Made by a program: the position numbers and the translations under genes | Shown: positions 1 through 11,829 of the stretch, piece after piece | How positions within the stretch are numbered: position 1 is the stretch's first letter | How the letters are laid out: the number at the start of each line of letters is the position of its first letter | NCBI RefSeq assembly: GCF_013201645.1 | Contig: NZ_CP053842.1 | Coordinates: forward strand, 868,001-932,000 | From: Campylobacter corcagiensis | GTDB lineage: Bacteria; Campylobacterota; Campylobacteria; Campylobacterales; Campylobacteraceae | Reading direction: 5' to 3' | Length of the DNA stretch: 64,000 nucleotides | The notes under the pieces: generated by a model | Database searches by the model: none | Seen by the model: the letters and a program-made list of their open reading frames with translations, nothing else | What the model was told of the DNA's origin: nothing

Positions 1-2347
1 TCTCACCAAAAAGCTGTGCAAATTCCTTTTTATCACTATCAAAAATGATATTTGTAGGATCAGGAAATTTAGTCAGCATCTCATCACATAAAGCCTTAAA
101 TCCTTTAAACTCAACCCCATCATCAGCGTATCCATTTATATACTCTTCATAGCTTTTTTCTAAAATCACATTTAAGCTATTTTCATCGCCAAAAACTCTA
201 ATCGATTCTTTTGTCGCCTCTTCTAAATCTCTAAAACAAACTATATTTCCAAAAGTTTTGACGCTGTTTAAAATGCGATTTGTCCTAGAAAATGCTTGTA
301 AAAGTCCGTGATAGCGTAAGTTTTTATCCACAAAAAGCGTGTTTAAAGTTGGAGCGTCAAAGCCAGTTAAAAACATACCAACAACTATTAAAAGATCAAT
401 CTCTTTATCTTTAACCCTTTTTGATAAATTTTCATAATACCCCTCAAAGCCTTTTGAATCGGTGCTAAAATTTGTCCTAAACTCAGCGTTATACTCTTTT
501 ATAACTTCGTCTAAAAACTCTTTTGATGATAAGTCCATTAAATTTAGGTCAAATTTCTCATCTAAAATCTCACCTTTTGCACTTTGTGTTTCATTTTGCG
601 AAAAACTAAAAATAGTAGCGATTTTTAGCTTTTTATCATCTTTTAACTCATCAATTTGCTTTTTAAGTTCAGTATAGTAAATTTTTGCAGCTTCTACGCT
701 TTGGACTGCAAACATCGCATTAAAGCCCTTTAAACGCTTATCTTTGATGTTATAAATTTCATTTCTATGAGTTTTTGTATCATAAACTTTTAAAATATGA
801 CTTACTACTTCGCTAATCCTCTCTGGGTGAAGTAAAAGCTTGTTTTCATATTTTTTAAGTTCATCTAAATTTTGCTCTTTTTCAATATCTTTAAATTTAG
901 GCGATAAATTTATATAATCCACCTTAAATTTAAGCACTTTTTCATCTCTAATCGCATCAGTTATAACATAACTATGAAGCTGCGTTCCAAAAACCCCAGC
1001 TGTAGTTTGCGTCCCAAGGGCGTTATCTACGAAAATCGGCGTTCCTGTAAAGCCAAATTGATAATATTTTTTAAAATGCTTTGTTATGTTTTTTTGTGCT
1101 TCGCCAAATTGCGATCTATGGCACTCATCAAAGATCAAAACGCAGTGTTTATCGTAAATTTCGTGATTTTTATTTTGTTTTATAAACTCATTTAGTTTTT
1201 GTATCGTGGTTACGACGATTTTATCATCGCTTTTTTCAAGATTTTTTTTAAGCTCTTTTGTATTTACACTTCCATTTATGCTATTTTTTTGAAAACTTTC
1301 ATATTCTTTTTTTGTTTGATAGTCTAAATCTTTCCTATCAACCACAAATAAAACTTTATCGATAAAATCAAGCTTTGTAGCGAGATTTGAAGTTTTAAAA
1401 GAAGTTAGCGTTTTTCCACTTCCAGTTGTGTGCCACACAAAACCACCTGCTTCAACGCTGCCAAATTTTTTATTTTTATAGCCAATTTCTATTTTTCTTA
1501 AAATTCTCTCACTTGCTGCGATTTGATAAGGTCGCATTATTAAAAGCTCATTTGATGAGTTAAAAACGCAGTATTTTGTGAGAATTTCAAGTAAGACTTT
1601 CTTTTGAAAAAATGTCGCTGTGAAGTCTTTTAAATCGCTAATCGCCCTATTTTTCGCATCCGCCCACTCGCAAGTAAATTCATAATTATTTTTATTTCTT
1701 GCAGCTGTATTTGCGAAATATCTAGTAAAAGTCCCATTTGAAATGACAAAAATTTGAGCGTATTTATAGAGTGAGTTTTGAGAATTAAAGCTTTCTTTTG
1801 TGTATCTGTGGATTTGATTAAACGCTTCATTTAAGCTAACGCCTCGTTTTTTAAGCTCGATATGCACAAGTGGAAGTCCATTTACTAAAATACTTACATC
1901 GTAGCGATTTTGGTGCGTTCCAGTTTGTGAGATTTGATTTACAACTTGCAAATAATTTTTATGAATCTCTTTTTTATCGATTATTTTTATATTTTCTAGC
2001 TTTTCGTTATCAAATTTAAAGCTGTGTTGATGATCTATTTGGATTTTTCTTGTGGCATCGATAAAAGTATCATTTTGCTTATCTAAATACTCATATAAAA
2101 ATCTCTCCCACTCACTTTGTGAGAATTTAACTCCGTTTAATCGCTCGATTTGAGTTTTTAAATTTGCTTTCATCTCATCTAAGTTTAAAAAACTAACCCT
2201 TTCATAGCCTTGAGTTTCCAAATCTTTTATAAATTCATTTTCTAAATCTTTTTCGCTTTGATAAGAAGTTGAATTTTTAGGAAGTTTTTCGTAGTTTGCA
2301 AGGACGATGAAATTATCTGATTCTATTATGGGCTTTGTTTCTTGCAT
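1..2347 (-). CDS. hsdR: Type I restriction enzyme R subunit HsdR (partial, C-terminus beyond left edge)
   Basis: This is the ATP-dependent translocase and endonuclease subunit of a type I restriction complex (R2M2S). I translated it by hand from the ATG at 2345-2347 (protein starts MQETKPIIE). The frame stays open to base 1, so about 782 residues are visible and the C-terminus is missing. An N-terminal PD-(D/E)xK nuclease region is seen around residues 145-170 (VHIELKKRG holds the ExK). It is followed by helicase motif I in [13 protein letters not shown] (about residues 302-312), motif II DECH (about 406), motif III GFTGTP and motif [10 protein letters not shown]. These are standard HsdR motifs in the usual order and none is damaged. 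The start lies 2 nt after the hsdS stop codon, so the two are probably translated together. It is last in the hsdM-DUF4160-DUF2442-hsdS-hsdR operon. Confidence 0.96.
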
Positions 2348-2349
2348 TT

Positions 2350-3594
2350 TTAATCCTTTTTAAAATTTAAAAGTAAATTTCTATAATATTCATATTGTTT
2401 TTGCCTTAAATTTATCTCTTTTGGTAAGCCTTTTTCTAAATTTGATGAAATTTGGCTAAATTTATCTAAAATTTTAACTATTTTTTCTTGGATTTTTAGA
2501 GGTGGTAGTAGGATTTTGAAATTTTGCGTTGTTTCAATTGATATTTGTGGTAGTTTGCCGGTAATAGCTTTGTTTTTAAAATAATCAATATTGTTTTTAA
2601 GATAGTAATACAAAAATTTAATATTGAGAATATTATCATTTTTTGAGCCATAAGACCACATTTCATTTTTATGAGTAAATTTACCACTATAAAATTCAAA
2701 ATCAATATTTCCACGCGATTTCACAATAACACTTGGTTTATCTATTATATTTTCTAAGCCAACTTCTGCCGTGCTTAATCTTGCCATTGTATTTCCACCT
2801 GCAAAAACCATAACTTCTGAATTTTCATTATGTAGTTTTTCCATTTGTCCAGCTGTAATTTTAATACCTTTATATCTTTCACAAATTTCACCTAGCATTT
2901 TTGTTTGTAGTCGCCCCCCCCCCGCAGCTTCTTGGCTAAATTTATAACACATTTTTTCTAAAAACTCTTTACTTAGTAATAAATCTCTGTAAAATTCATA
3001 CTGCTTAGTGCGGAGCTGTAATTCGGTCTGTAATTCGGTCTGTAATTCGGTAGCATAATTTGTAAATTTGTCAAGGGTTTTGGCAATTTTTTCTTGAATT
3101 TCTAATGGTGGAATTGGGATTTTTATTTTCAATAAATCTCCCATATTTAAATGCATAATAGTAGTTCCATAAACACACTGCATTTTTTTATTTTCAAAAC
3201 TATTACTATTTAAATAATACATTAGATAATCAGGCGATATATCATCGTTTAAAATCAAAGATACTGCATCTCCGCCAAGCAATGCGGAGTCCATTTTAAA
3301 CACAGAAGCTTTTCCTATTTTTGCTTCTTTTGTTGTGCTAGATATTGGTAATAAGATATTATTTTTTATTATTTTTACAGATGATTTAACTTTTTTGGCA
3401 TCTACATATGTTTCTATTGAATTTATATAATCACCATACACCGTATATAGTTCTCCATATAAAATAGCTGGCACACCACTATCTTTTTTATCTGATTTTC
3501 TTAAACCTTTTCCACGCTTTATCTCGCAAACTTCCCCCAACTTTCTCCACTCAACTTCTACATTTTGTAAAATTTCATCTATTTTATTCATCAT
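2350..3594 (-). CDS. hsdS: Type I restriction specificity subunit HsdS, phase-variable
   Basis: This 414-residue protein is the DNA-recognition subunit that sets the target of the HsdM methylase and HsdR nuclease. It has the two-halved HsdS layout. The first target recognition domain covers about residues 15-165 and is followed by a helical spacer ([14 protein letters not shown]). The second recognition domain covers about 235-365 and ends in a matching spacer ([14 protein letters not shown]). The central spacer holds TELQ three times in tandem at residues 182-193, encoded by three perfect 12-bp repeats. Just after it, residues 224-228 are encoded across a G10 tract. Both features are typical hypermutable sites. 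In the given sequence the tract is in frame, so full-length HsdS is made. The gene starts ATGATG behind a weak ribosome site and lies 14 nt after the upstream DUF2442 gene. Confidence 0.96.
2914..2923 (-). repeat. Poly-G tract (G10 on the coding strand) inside hsdS
   Basis: Ten C residues on the given strand are ten G on the hsdS coding strand, at codons 224-227. Ten keeps the full 414-residue frame. With nine, the frame reads into TAG and gives 233 residues. With eleven it reaches TGA and gives 235 residues. Either change leaves a half-size HsdS with only the first recognition domain. Homopolymeric G tracts of this length are the standard slipped-strand contingency sites of Campylobacter. 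Confidence 0.93.
3016..3051 (-). repeat. Three tandem 12-bp repeats in hsdS encoding TELQ
   Basis: The unit CTGTAATTCGGT (given strand) occurs three times without mismatch and with no spacer. On the coding strand each unit reads ACCGAATTACAG and encodes Thr-Glu-Leu-Gln. The repeats sit in the central spacer helix between the two recognition domains. Because the unit is 12 bp, copy-number change keeps the frame and changes only the helix length. Confidence 0.95.
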
Positions 3595-3608
3595 AATTCT
3601 TTTTAAAT

Positions 3609-3851
3609 TTATGCTGTTTTATTTGAGGTGTTGTAAAAAATCATACCCTCAACGCTTAATTGTAAATCCAAGCTTTCCCACTCTATACCTGTTTTATCAC
3701 AGATAAAATGCCAATCTTTCATCTGCTTTATCGTAGCATTTAAAAACTCCTTATACCAACTAAGTGGAGTTGAGATAATTCTGCCATCATCTAACTCAAC
3801 ATTTAGATAAAACTCATCAAATTTAACATCTTTAGCCCTTAAAATACTCAT
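3609..3851 (-). CDS. DUF2442 family protein
   Basis: This 80-residue protein matches the DUF2442 pattern: a short N-terminal strand, then DGR-I-TPLSWY, and a WESLDLQLSVEGM-like C-terminal stretch. No enzymatic motif is visible and its function is unknown. The start overlaps the 3' end of the upstream DUF4160 gene by 20 nt and has an AAGGA ribosome site, so the two are co-translated. The DUF4160/DUF2442 pair is common in bacteria and is often suspected to be a toxin-antitoxin-like module; nothing here proves that. Its place between hsdM and hsdS is unusual. The family call is by eye. Confidence 0.8.
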   Translation of the reverse strand: MSILRAKDVKFDEFYLNVELDDGRIISTPLSWYKEFLNATIKQMKDWHFICDKTGIEWESLDLQLSVEGMIFYNTSNKTA

Positions 3852-4062
3852 CCCAAATCCTTATAAAATCATCTTTTTTCTTTTGTAAAATTTTTAGTGC
3901 AAATTTAAGGTCATTTCCTTTTAAACTACTAAAAACAACTTCTAAATTTTCTAAATTTATCTTTGCAAACTCATCGCCTTTTAAAATATGGATATGTTTT
4001 GGCTCATGTTCGTTTGAGTAAAAGAAAAATTTAAAACCATCTGTTTTTAATAATGTTGGCAT
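3832..4062 (-). CDS. DUF4160 family protein
   Basis: This 76-residue protein shows the DUF4160 hallmarks: an N-terminal MPTLLKTDGFKFFFYSNEHEPKHIHI segment (stated here only as the family signature, with the E-P-HIHI core) followed by a strand-rich middle and a C-terminal KK-DDFIRIWDEYF helix. It starts 41 nt after the hsdM stop and overlaps the next gene (DUF2442) by 20 nt. The two small genes form an inserted pair inside the hsd operon. The role is unknown; a toxin-antitoxin or accessory role for the restriction system is only a guess. Confidence 0.8.
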   Translation of the reverse strand: MPTLLKTDGFKFFFYSNEHEPKHIHILKGDEFAKINLENLEVVFSSLKGNDLKFALKILQKKKDDFIRIWDEYFKG

Positions 4063-4103
4063 AAAATTTCCCTTGTATTATATAAATAAATTTTTAACTT
4101 CAT

Positions 4104-5663
4104 TCATAAAATTTCTATCTCTTTTACGATTTCATCTATTTGGCTTCGTAAATTTGAGATGTTTTTTACAACTTCGCTGATTTCTAAATTTAGCTTTTTT
4201 ATATCTATTTTTTCTCTTAAATCCTCTTTTTCAACATAGCTTGAAACAGAGAGATTATACTCATTTTCTTTTATCTCATCAAAACTAACATATCTTGAAA
4301 AATACTCTTTATCACTTCTTTTATCAAACTCATCTAAAATTTTTTCTATATTTTCATCGCTTAAAATGTTGTTATTTGTCTCTTTTTTAAACTCATTTGA
4401 GGCATCTATAAATAAAATTTTATTATCTATTTTATTTTTTGCCATTACTAAGATGCAAGTTGCGATGCTTGTGCCAAAAAATAAATTTGATGGAAGCTGT
4501 ATAATGGCATCTATGAAGTTGTTATCCACCAAATATTCGCGGATCGTTTTTTCAGCACCTTTTCTATAAAAAATCCCTGGAAAACAGACAATGGCGGCTC
4601 TTCCTTTGGACGAGAGATAGCTTAAAGAGTGCATAATAAAGGCAAAATCTGCGTAATTTTTAGGTGCTAAACGCCCAGCTGGTGCGTAGCGTTCGTCGTT
4701 TATTAAGGTTGGGTCATTATCACCGATCCATTTTATGCCATACGGCGGATTTGAAACGATCGCATCAAATGGCTTGTCGTTATTATGCAAAGGATTTAAA
4801 AGCGTGTCGCCTCTTTTAATGTTAAATTTATTATAGTTAATGTTGTGTAAAAACATATTCATTCTAGCCATATTATAAATCGTGATATTTATCTCTTGCC
4901 CAAAAAATCCATCTTCGATTTTGTTTTTATCAAATTGTTTTATAATTTGTAAAAGTAACGACCCACTCCCACACGCTGGATCATAGACTTTATTAATGCT
5001 TTCTTTTTTGTGCGTTACGATTTTTGCTAACAGCTTTGAAACGCTTTGTGGGGTGAAAAACTCGCCGCCTGATTTACCTGCATTACTTGCGTAATTTGAG
5101 ATCAAAAACTCATACGCATCGCCAAAAGCGTCTATTTTATTATCTTCAAATTTGCCAAAATTTATCTCACTTATGCCTTGTAAAATTTTAACTAATCTTT
5201 CATTTTTTTCTTTTACGGTTGAGCCGAGGCGATTATTTGTAGTATCGATATCATCAAAAAGCCCTTTTATGTCATCTTCCGAGTCAAAACCTATGGCACT
5301 TTTTTCGATATTTTTAAAGATATTTGCTAAATTTGTGTTTAAATTTTCATTTTTTTTAGCGTTTTTTACGACATTTTCAAAAAGCTCACTTGGTAGGATA
5401 AAAAAGCCTTTTTCTTTTACCGTGCCAGGCTTGAAGTCTTGTAAGGCATCTTCGTCTGAAATTTTTGCATAATCAAACTCCAAATCCCCTGCAATTCGTT
5501 CGTTCTCATTAAAATAATCTCTTAAATTTTCACAAATAAATCTATAAAATAAAATTCCTAAAATGTATTGTTTAAAGTCCCAGCCATCAACAGCCCCACG
5601 CACATCATCAGCAACTTTCCAAATTTTTCTATGAAGTTCATCTCTTTGTAGTGTTTCACTCAT
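4104..5663 (-). CDS. hsdM: Type I restriction-modification methyltransferase HsdM
   Basis: HsdM is the N6-adenine methyltransferase subunit of the type I enzyme, working with HsdS. The 519-residue protein has an N-terminal HsdM helical domain (residues 5-150, including LGILFYRFI). The AdoMet-binding motif [10 protein letters not shown] is at 228-236 and the catalytic motif IV NPPYG is at 305-309. The C-terminal tail from about 465 is coiled-coil-like, as expected for binding HsdS. Length and motif order are normal. It has an AAGGAAATTAAATG start and begins 26 nt after the ureD/ureH stop codon, in the same direction. It could be read through from the urease operon or started from a small promoter overlapping the ureD stop. 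Confidence 0.97.
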
Positions 5664-10992: not shown

Positions 10993-11829
10993 ATGAAAAG
11001 AAAATGGGGGGGGGTTCTAACTCTTAGCTTTATTTTGGTCGGTTGTGGAGAAAATAATATTGATATAGTTAAAAACTATACCTTTCCTAATATAAAAACT
11101 ATGACCATTGGGACAGCTATAGGGACATTTGATGAGTGCCAAAGCGTTAAATGGAAAGATGAAAGTAACGAAGCTCAAAAAATAGTAAGTGCAACTTGCG
11201 TGGTAAAACCTGAAATTTTAAAAGCTGAATATGAAACAGAAATTGCTAAGCTACAAAAAGAAAAAGATGAATATAAAGCTGAGTTTGATAAAGCAAAAGA
11301 TGAGTTTGAAAAACGATACAAGGAAGCGGAACAAAAAGCACTAAATAGTTTTAAGGCTGATAGACAAAGAGAACTTGATTGGGCTGTTACTTGGGGTAAT
11401 TGGCCAAAAGATACAGGCACCACGGAAGATGATGTTTGGGAGCTTTATGATGAGTTTTGTAAAGATAAAAAATTTTGTGATAATGATGGGCTATCTACTA
11501 AGATTCAATATAAATATAAATTAGGCAAAAATACAAATAAAGAAGAGCGTATGATAAAATCTATCAATAATCTCAAAAAAGAGATGGATAAAGAATTTTC
11601 TCCTGAAAACTACAATATGCCAAAATTTATAGAACCAGTTAAAATGTTTGGGAGAGATCTAAACCAAACAATTGAACCTATAAGCTCTCGTTCTTATAAA
11701 TTTGAGTTTTTTGTAAATACGGATAAAACTGTGGAATTTAAAGATGAGTATATAATAGAAAATGGTCTAGCTGAAAAATCAGGTGGATTTGGTAAAGGAA
11801 GAATTTTATCTAAATTTTACAAAAGATAG
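10993..11829 (+). CDS. Phase-variable lipoprotein of unknown function
   Basis: This 278-residue protein starts MKRKWGGVLTLSFILVGC. The short hydrophobic signal ends in the lipobox L-V-G-C with the lipidated cysteine at residue 18, so it should be a membrane-anchored lipoprotein. Residues about 70-120 are a charged Lys/Glu-rich coiled coil, followed by a Trp-rich patch (WAVTWGNWP) and a mixed C-terminal domain. I do not recognise a family. Codons 5-8 are written in a G9 tract; eight or ten G would stop translation after 8 or 11 residues, so the gene can be switched off. It stands alone with its own promoter and terminator, between urease and clpB. It could be a surface antigen, but no function can be assigned. 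Confidence 0.9.
   Translation: MKRKWGGVLTLSFILVGCGENNIDIVKNYTFPNIKTMTIGTAIGTFDECQSVKWKDESNEAQKIVSATCVVKPEILKAEYETEIAKLQKEKDEYKAEFDKAKDEFEKRYKEAEQKALNSFKADRQRELDWAVTWGNWPKDTGTTEDDVWELYDEFCKDKKFCDNDGLSTKIQYKYKLGKNTNKEERMIKSINNLKKEMDKEFSPENYNMPKFIEPVKMFGRDLNQTIEPISSRSYKFEFFVNTDKTVEFKDEYIIENGLAEKSGGFGKGRILSKFYKR
11006..11014 (+). repeat. Poly-G tract (G9) in the signal-peptide region of the lipoprotein gene
   Basis: Nine G starting at the second base of codon 5 (TGG). Nine is the in-frame number. G8 leads to TTC-TAA and G10 to TCT-TAG within a few codons, so slippage in either direction gives a complete off state. Confidence 0.93.

Follow-up and report, generated by a model that had tools for sequence, protein, structure and literature searches.

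A type IC system of Campylobacter corcagiensis with a probable NgoAV-type hsdS architecture: a tandem 12-bp repeat and a poly-G tract within one gene

The hsdS gene of Campylobacter corcagiensis lies on the minus strand at positions 2350-3594 of the window, i.e. the whole 64-kb stretch of DNA analysed, and encodes a type I specificity subunit of 414 aa that is full-length in the assembled G10 state. The gene very probably has the NgoAV-type architecture within a type IC system, in which a central array of 12-bp repeats would set the spacing of the DNA target and a G tract would switch the subunit between a full-length form and a half. This adds Campylobacter to the organisms with the NgoAV architecture. 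The combination of a spacing repeat with a poly-G tract between the target-recognition domains (TRDs) is found repeatedly among type IC hsdS genes from many phyla; the helix is quantised in steps of 4 aa and termination after the tract is clean, and therefore the methylation states, N(x), N(x+1) and palindromic, should be predictable from genome sequence in many species. The observation from which the analysis started was sound and the functional guess attached to it good; the broader survey result may interest specialists.

A second contig of the genome matches the C. corcagiensis plasmid record NZ_CP063077.1 with 100% identity across 99% of a 16-kb stretch. The genes of the locus are found in the order hsdM, a 76-aa ORF, a DUF2442 ORF, hsdS and hsdR. 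HsdM (4104-5663, minus strand, 519 aa) matches Pfam N6_Mtase and HsdM_N, and Methylase_S matches two stretches of the hsdS product (E=3.5e-44). The hsdR gene (1-2347, minus strand) extends beyond the window; in the genome its ORF is intact and encodes 1004 aa. The 76-aa ORF and the DUF2442 ORF, the latter of 80 aa, occupy 3609-4070 on the minus strand. In PDB searches HsdM matched EcoR124 HsdM (7BST) with E=1e-209 as against 2e-16 for EcoKI, while the best matches of HsdS and HsdR were EcoR124 HsdS in 7BST (E=8e-27) and EcoR124 HsdR in 2W00 (reported E=0). Given that all three subunits are closest to EcoR124 in the PDB, the system is assigned to type IC by sequence. The tandem 4-aa repeats by which this type is recognised are present in the central conserved helix as three copies of TELQ, other type IC repeats including TAEL, LEAT, SEAL and TSEL (PMC10030836). 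As judged from these matches, the locus holds all the parts of a type IC restriction-modification system.

The array consists of three perfect units (ACCGAATTACAG) at 3016-3051 on the minus strand, encoding TELQ x3 at aa 182-193. The units, at 3016-3027, 3028-3039 and 3040-3051, are in tandem and in frame with the hsdS ORF, and in this the initial annotation was correct as to position, frame and translation. The array is the top-scoring tandem array of the 64-kb window (TRF score 72, 100% matches), and no other array there is a perfect 12 x 3; none of 100 first-order Markov windows contained such an array. Codon choice is identical across all TELQ copies, down to the rare codons ACC, which serves for 9% of Thr, and CAG, which serves for 20% of Gln. 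Since two independent TELQ copies would match in their codons by chance with p of about 2.4e-5, the array was born by DNA duplication and not by convergence at the protein level.

An AlphaFold model of HsdS, built from 39 aligned HsdS proteins (mean pLDDT 88, pTM 0.67), places the TELQ repeats inside the helix formed by residues 164-206, which is the first dimerization helix, the second being 366-409. Counted from LDxF to QYxxYR, helix 1 has 20 residues in C. corcagiensis and 16 in EcoR124I, which has two TAEL repeats (7BST sequence). Adding one unit to the 16 residues of EcoR124I gives 20, so by sequence the helix with three TELQ copies is of the EcoR124II class. The same count over the PDB alignment gives helix 2 a length of 20 residues in both C. 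corcagiensis HsdS and EcoR124. Thus the PDB matches and the model agree with the earlier EcoR124-like reading: the hsdS is of type IC, and its repeat is of the TAEL kind and has the expected helix and register. EcoR124I/II, the closest PDB match of all three subunits, likewise has a 12-bp unit, a 4-aa repeat present two or three times and, by the same count, a helix of 16 or 20 residues; it differs in having TAEL instead of TELQ and no poly-G in the 7BST sequence, where the linker reads GEVEWKTLGE.

The 4-aa register of the helix holds well beyond this pair. The LDxF-QYxxYR interval was a multiple of four residues in 165/165 N-halves. A looser anchor that admits the gene in the window gave 172 matches, of which 168 were true HsdS and 4 were copies of one unrelated protein, and in all 168 true HsdS N-halves the interval was 8, 12, 16, 20, 24 or 48 residues, in 4-aa steps. 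Intervals of 16 or 20 residues made up 153 of the 168. Three pairs of genes have TRD1 sequences that are 94-100% identical and yet helices that differ by whole units: L105/L156 (TRD1 100% over 178 aa; helix 20 versus 16), L055/L125 (96.8%; 48 versus 16) and L126/L135 (94.2%; 20 versus 16). As the members of each pair belong to separate species or bins, the evidence is evolutionary and does not come from within an isolate. The L055 gene (Haemophilus haemolyticus M19501, hsdS at 3217-4413) contains ten 12-bp TSEL units together with a G10 tract; an array of ten units may be hypermutable in itself, and its helix would greatly exceed the usual length.

These lengths bear on whether the array varies at all. 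It may be a fixed structural feature that keeps the helix at its optimum and is no source of variation in C. corcagiensis, a reading to which we give somewhat less than an even chance. Three units match the 20 residues of helix 2, the optimum for type IC (PMC3874165), and the predominance of 16 and 20 residues among the surveyed genes is consistent with such an optimum. However, the three copies do not differ in a single nucleotide, which points to recent duplication, and the relatives sharing a TRD1 differ in unit number, up to the ten units of the Haemophilus gene. Since three 12-bp units make a short array, its copy number may change only rarely and not as a switch; with most relatives having two or three copies, a role as a fast switch in C. 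corcagiensis may at most be supposed. In the preferred reading, the TELQ array would set the length of the first of the antiparallel helices that separate the two TRDs, and loss or gain of a TELQ unit would change the spacer of the DNA target by roughly one base, by analogy with NgoAV and with EcoR124I/II, for which the spacing change was reviewed by Loenen et al. (PMC3874165).

The G10 tract (2914-2923, minus strand, aa 224-227) is situated between the helix region and TRD2, and in the model its residues fall within the loop 223-229 directly ahead of the first strand of TRD2. A poly-G tract had been noted near the array at a spacing of 93 nt; the tract is there, further down hsdS, and the spacing is 92 nt. 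Homopolymers of at least 9 nt occur only twice in the 64-kb window, the other being a G9 at 11006-11014. A lipoprotein-like ORF (10993-11829) has this G9 at its 5' end; the ORF reaches 278 aa only at G9, meets a stop within 11 codons at G8 and G10, and is, on its sequence, likely to be an ON/OFF phase-variable gene. Frame computation for hsdS gives a full-length product at G7, G10 and G13, and products of 233 aa at G9 and 235 aa at G11, so the frameshift halving suggested in the initial annotation is reproduced as a prediction in which a one-base change leaves a half HsdS of 233-235 aa. The assembled C. corcagiensis genome has a single state, G10 with TELQ x3, bearing in mind that assembled poly-G lengths can be wrong by one.

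In the proposed mechanism, full-length HsdS in the G10 state would read an asymmetric bipartite site. Slippage of the G tract would give a clean N-terminal half consisting of TRD1 and the helix, and two such halves would pair to read an interrupted palindrome, as do the half subunits of EcoR124, EcoDXXI and NgoAV reviewed by Loenen et al. (PMC3874165). The N-terminal half with three repeats known from the EcoDXXI and EcoR124 half-subunits corresponds to the expected G9 or G11 product, although those halves arose by transposon or deletion and not by a reversible tract. For C. corcagiensis itself, it is from these relatives that we infer slippage, copy-number change within the species and the methylation that results.

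The combination of array and poly-G in one gene had been thought undescribed. This did not hold, as Sanchez-Buso et al. (2019) reported both in the hsdS of gonococcal NgoAV, where 0-3 LEAT repeats and a frameshift in a G homopolymer jointly set the motif, with methylomes giving GACN6TGC, GACN7TGC and GCAN8TGC (PMC6789123). The C. corcagiensis hsdS shares with it the type IC class, a central array of a 4-aa repeat and, in the same gene, a downstream inter-TRD poly-G tract in which a one-base change is predicted to leave the N-terminal half. It differs from NgoAV in its TRDs, in having TELQ instead of LEAT and an in-frame G10 instead of the 6 to 9 G found in 92 gonococci (PMC9577141), and in a TRD2 half that opens with an ATG overlapping a stop. 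As wider context, hsdS genes with simple sequence repeats were surveyed in REBASE by Atack and colleagues, and such repeats are reported in 7.9% of hsdS genes (PMC7394358).

The breadth of the arrangement was surveyed using the pattern of a poly-G tract downstream of the QYEYYR motif. The pattern was found in 13/153 Campylobacteraceae genomes and in at least 118 stretches across the species collection, the matches listed including Bacteroidota, Clostridia, relatives of Mycoplasma, Pasteurellaceae, Neisseria wadsworthii, Actinomycetota, Saccharibacteria and one archaeal MAG. Among the matches listed, 117 poly-G genes had a full C half, and 86 of these 117, from many phyla, also contained a 12-bp array, defined as two or more 12-bp units with an identity of 11/12 or higher. 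Arrays were not enriched in the poly-G genes (86/117 among the matches listed versus 28/33 poly-G-free relatives), the 33 control hsdS genes, a small set, coming from three viral-contig scans and Helicobacteraceae regions and differing in taxonomy from the poly-G set. Given that the array is equally common without poly-G, the two features look independent. A special pairing of array and tract was thus rejected; it seems that two traits, each common and independent of the other, coincide within one HsdS family. Several genomes or loci, namely L076 and L078 (Flavobacteriaceae MAGs), L119 (a Treponema MAG) and L201-L203 (G329), have two or three separate poly-G hsdS sites, where slippage may go together with a reshuffling of specificity domains.

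What happens immediately after the tract distinguishes the poly-G genes from their controls. Among the matches listed, both off-frames stop within 30 nt past the tract in 83/117 poly-G hsdS genes, where the expectation calculated from the rest of these genes is 34.7, and the matching place in the taxonomically different poly-G-free controls showed this in 10/33 (Fisher p=3.6e-5). With the off-frame stops so close to the tract, the cut is clean, and this suggests, from the sequences, that a defined half subunit is a selected product. It is rather unlikely that the G tract is instead a plain ON/OFF switch, whose G9 or G11 half is unstable or inactive and leaves the system silent. This is the usual mode of most poly-G phase-variable genes, and 47% of gonococcal NgoAV-like loci are predicted to lack an active enzyme through extra hsdS1 mutations and a 7G frameshift (PMC9577141). 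However, the hsdS tract is, in the model, exactly in the loop between the halves, unlike the gene-start position of the G9 in the lipoprotein-like ORF, and truncated NgoAV and EcoDXXI halves are active (PMC6789123, PMC3874165). The unusual nearness of the off-frame stops, too, is as expected were a defined half useful.

In C. corcagiensis the N half is closed by a TAG (2892-2894, minus strand) in the G9 frame and by a TGA (2888-2890, minus strand) in the G11 frame. The in-frame ATG that opens TRD2 (KMLGE; 2896-2898, minus strand) is a candidate restart codon for a 182-aa C half, and overlaps the TAG in the region ATGCTAG. Both off-frame stops are thus at most 8 nt from the in-frame ATG within ATGCTAGGTGA at 2888-2898. 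This placement would suit a switch in which the off-frames yield both halves, translation terminating and then restarting at the overlapping ATG to make the second, and homo- and heterodimers of the halves form. In keeping with it, an in-frame ATG stands just past the tract in 10/13 Campylobacteraceae genes, although their linkers are related and not independent, and in 40/117 genes among the matches listed versus 16.1 expected from the same genes. Co-expression of EcoDXXI halves also restores wild-type activity (PMC3874165). Nevertheless we consider such a switch unlikely. The excess of ATG over the poly-G-free controls is not significant (40/117 among the matches listed versus 7/33, p=0.20), no clear Shine-Dalgarno sequence was seen ahead of the TRD2 ATG on inspection of the hsdS sequence, and NgoAV hsdS2 is inactive (PMC9577141). 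A restart ATG as a general feature was accordingly rejected, as it exceeds the background of the genes and not significantly that of poly-G-free hsdS. Translation of the TRD2 half from the overlapping ATG is a hypothesis drawn from this sequence. The further proposal, that through ATGCTAG both halves would come from one message, so that one gene would provide an asymmetric full-length specificity and, from pairs of halves, as many as three more, all of them shifted again by the array, is improbable.

Tracts of another kind occupy a comparable place in other specificity genes. Elsewhere in this genome, outside the window, another specificity gene (contig C1:769153-769186, L256:2154-2187) is split between the TRDs by (GA)17, such that the HsdM-S1 ORF ends in ERERERER... 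and S2 is in another frame; a single frame of 902 aa results at GA18. From its sequence, the (GA)17 tract is a dinucleotide counterpart of the poly-G switch. An hsdS-like ORF in an IMG/VR contig (L384) has an ERERERER stretch, corresponding to a (GA)n tract, directly after the central helix.
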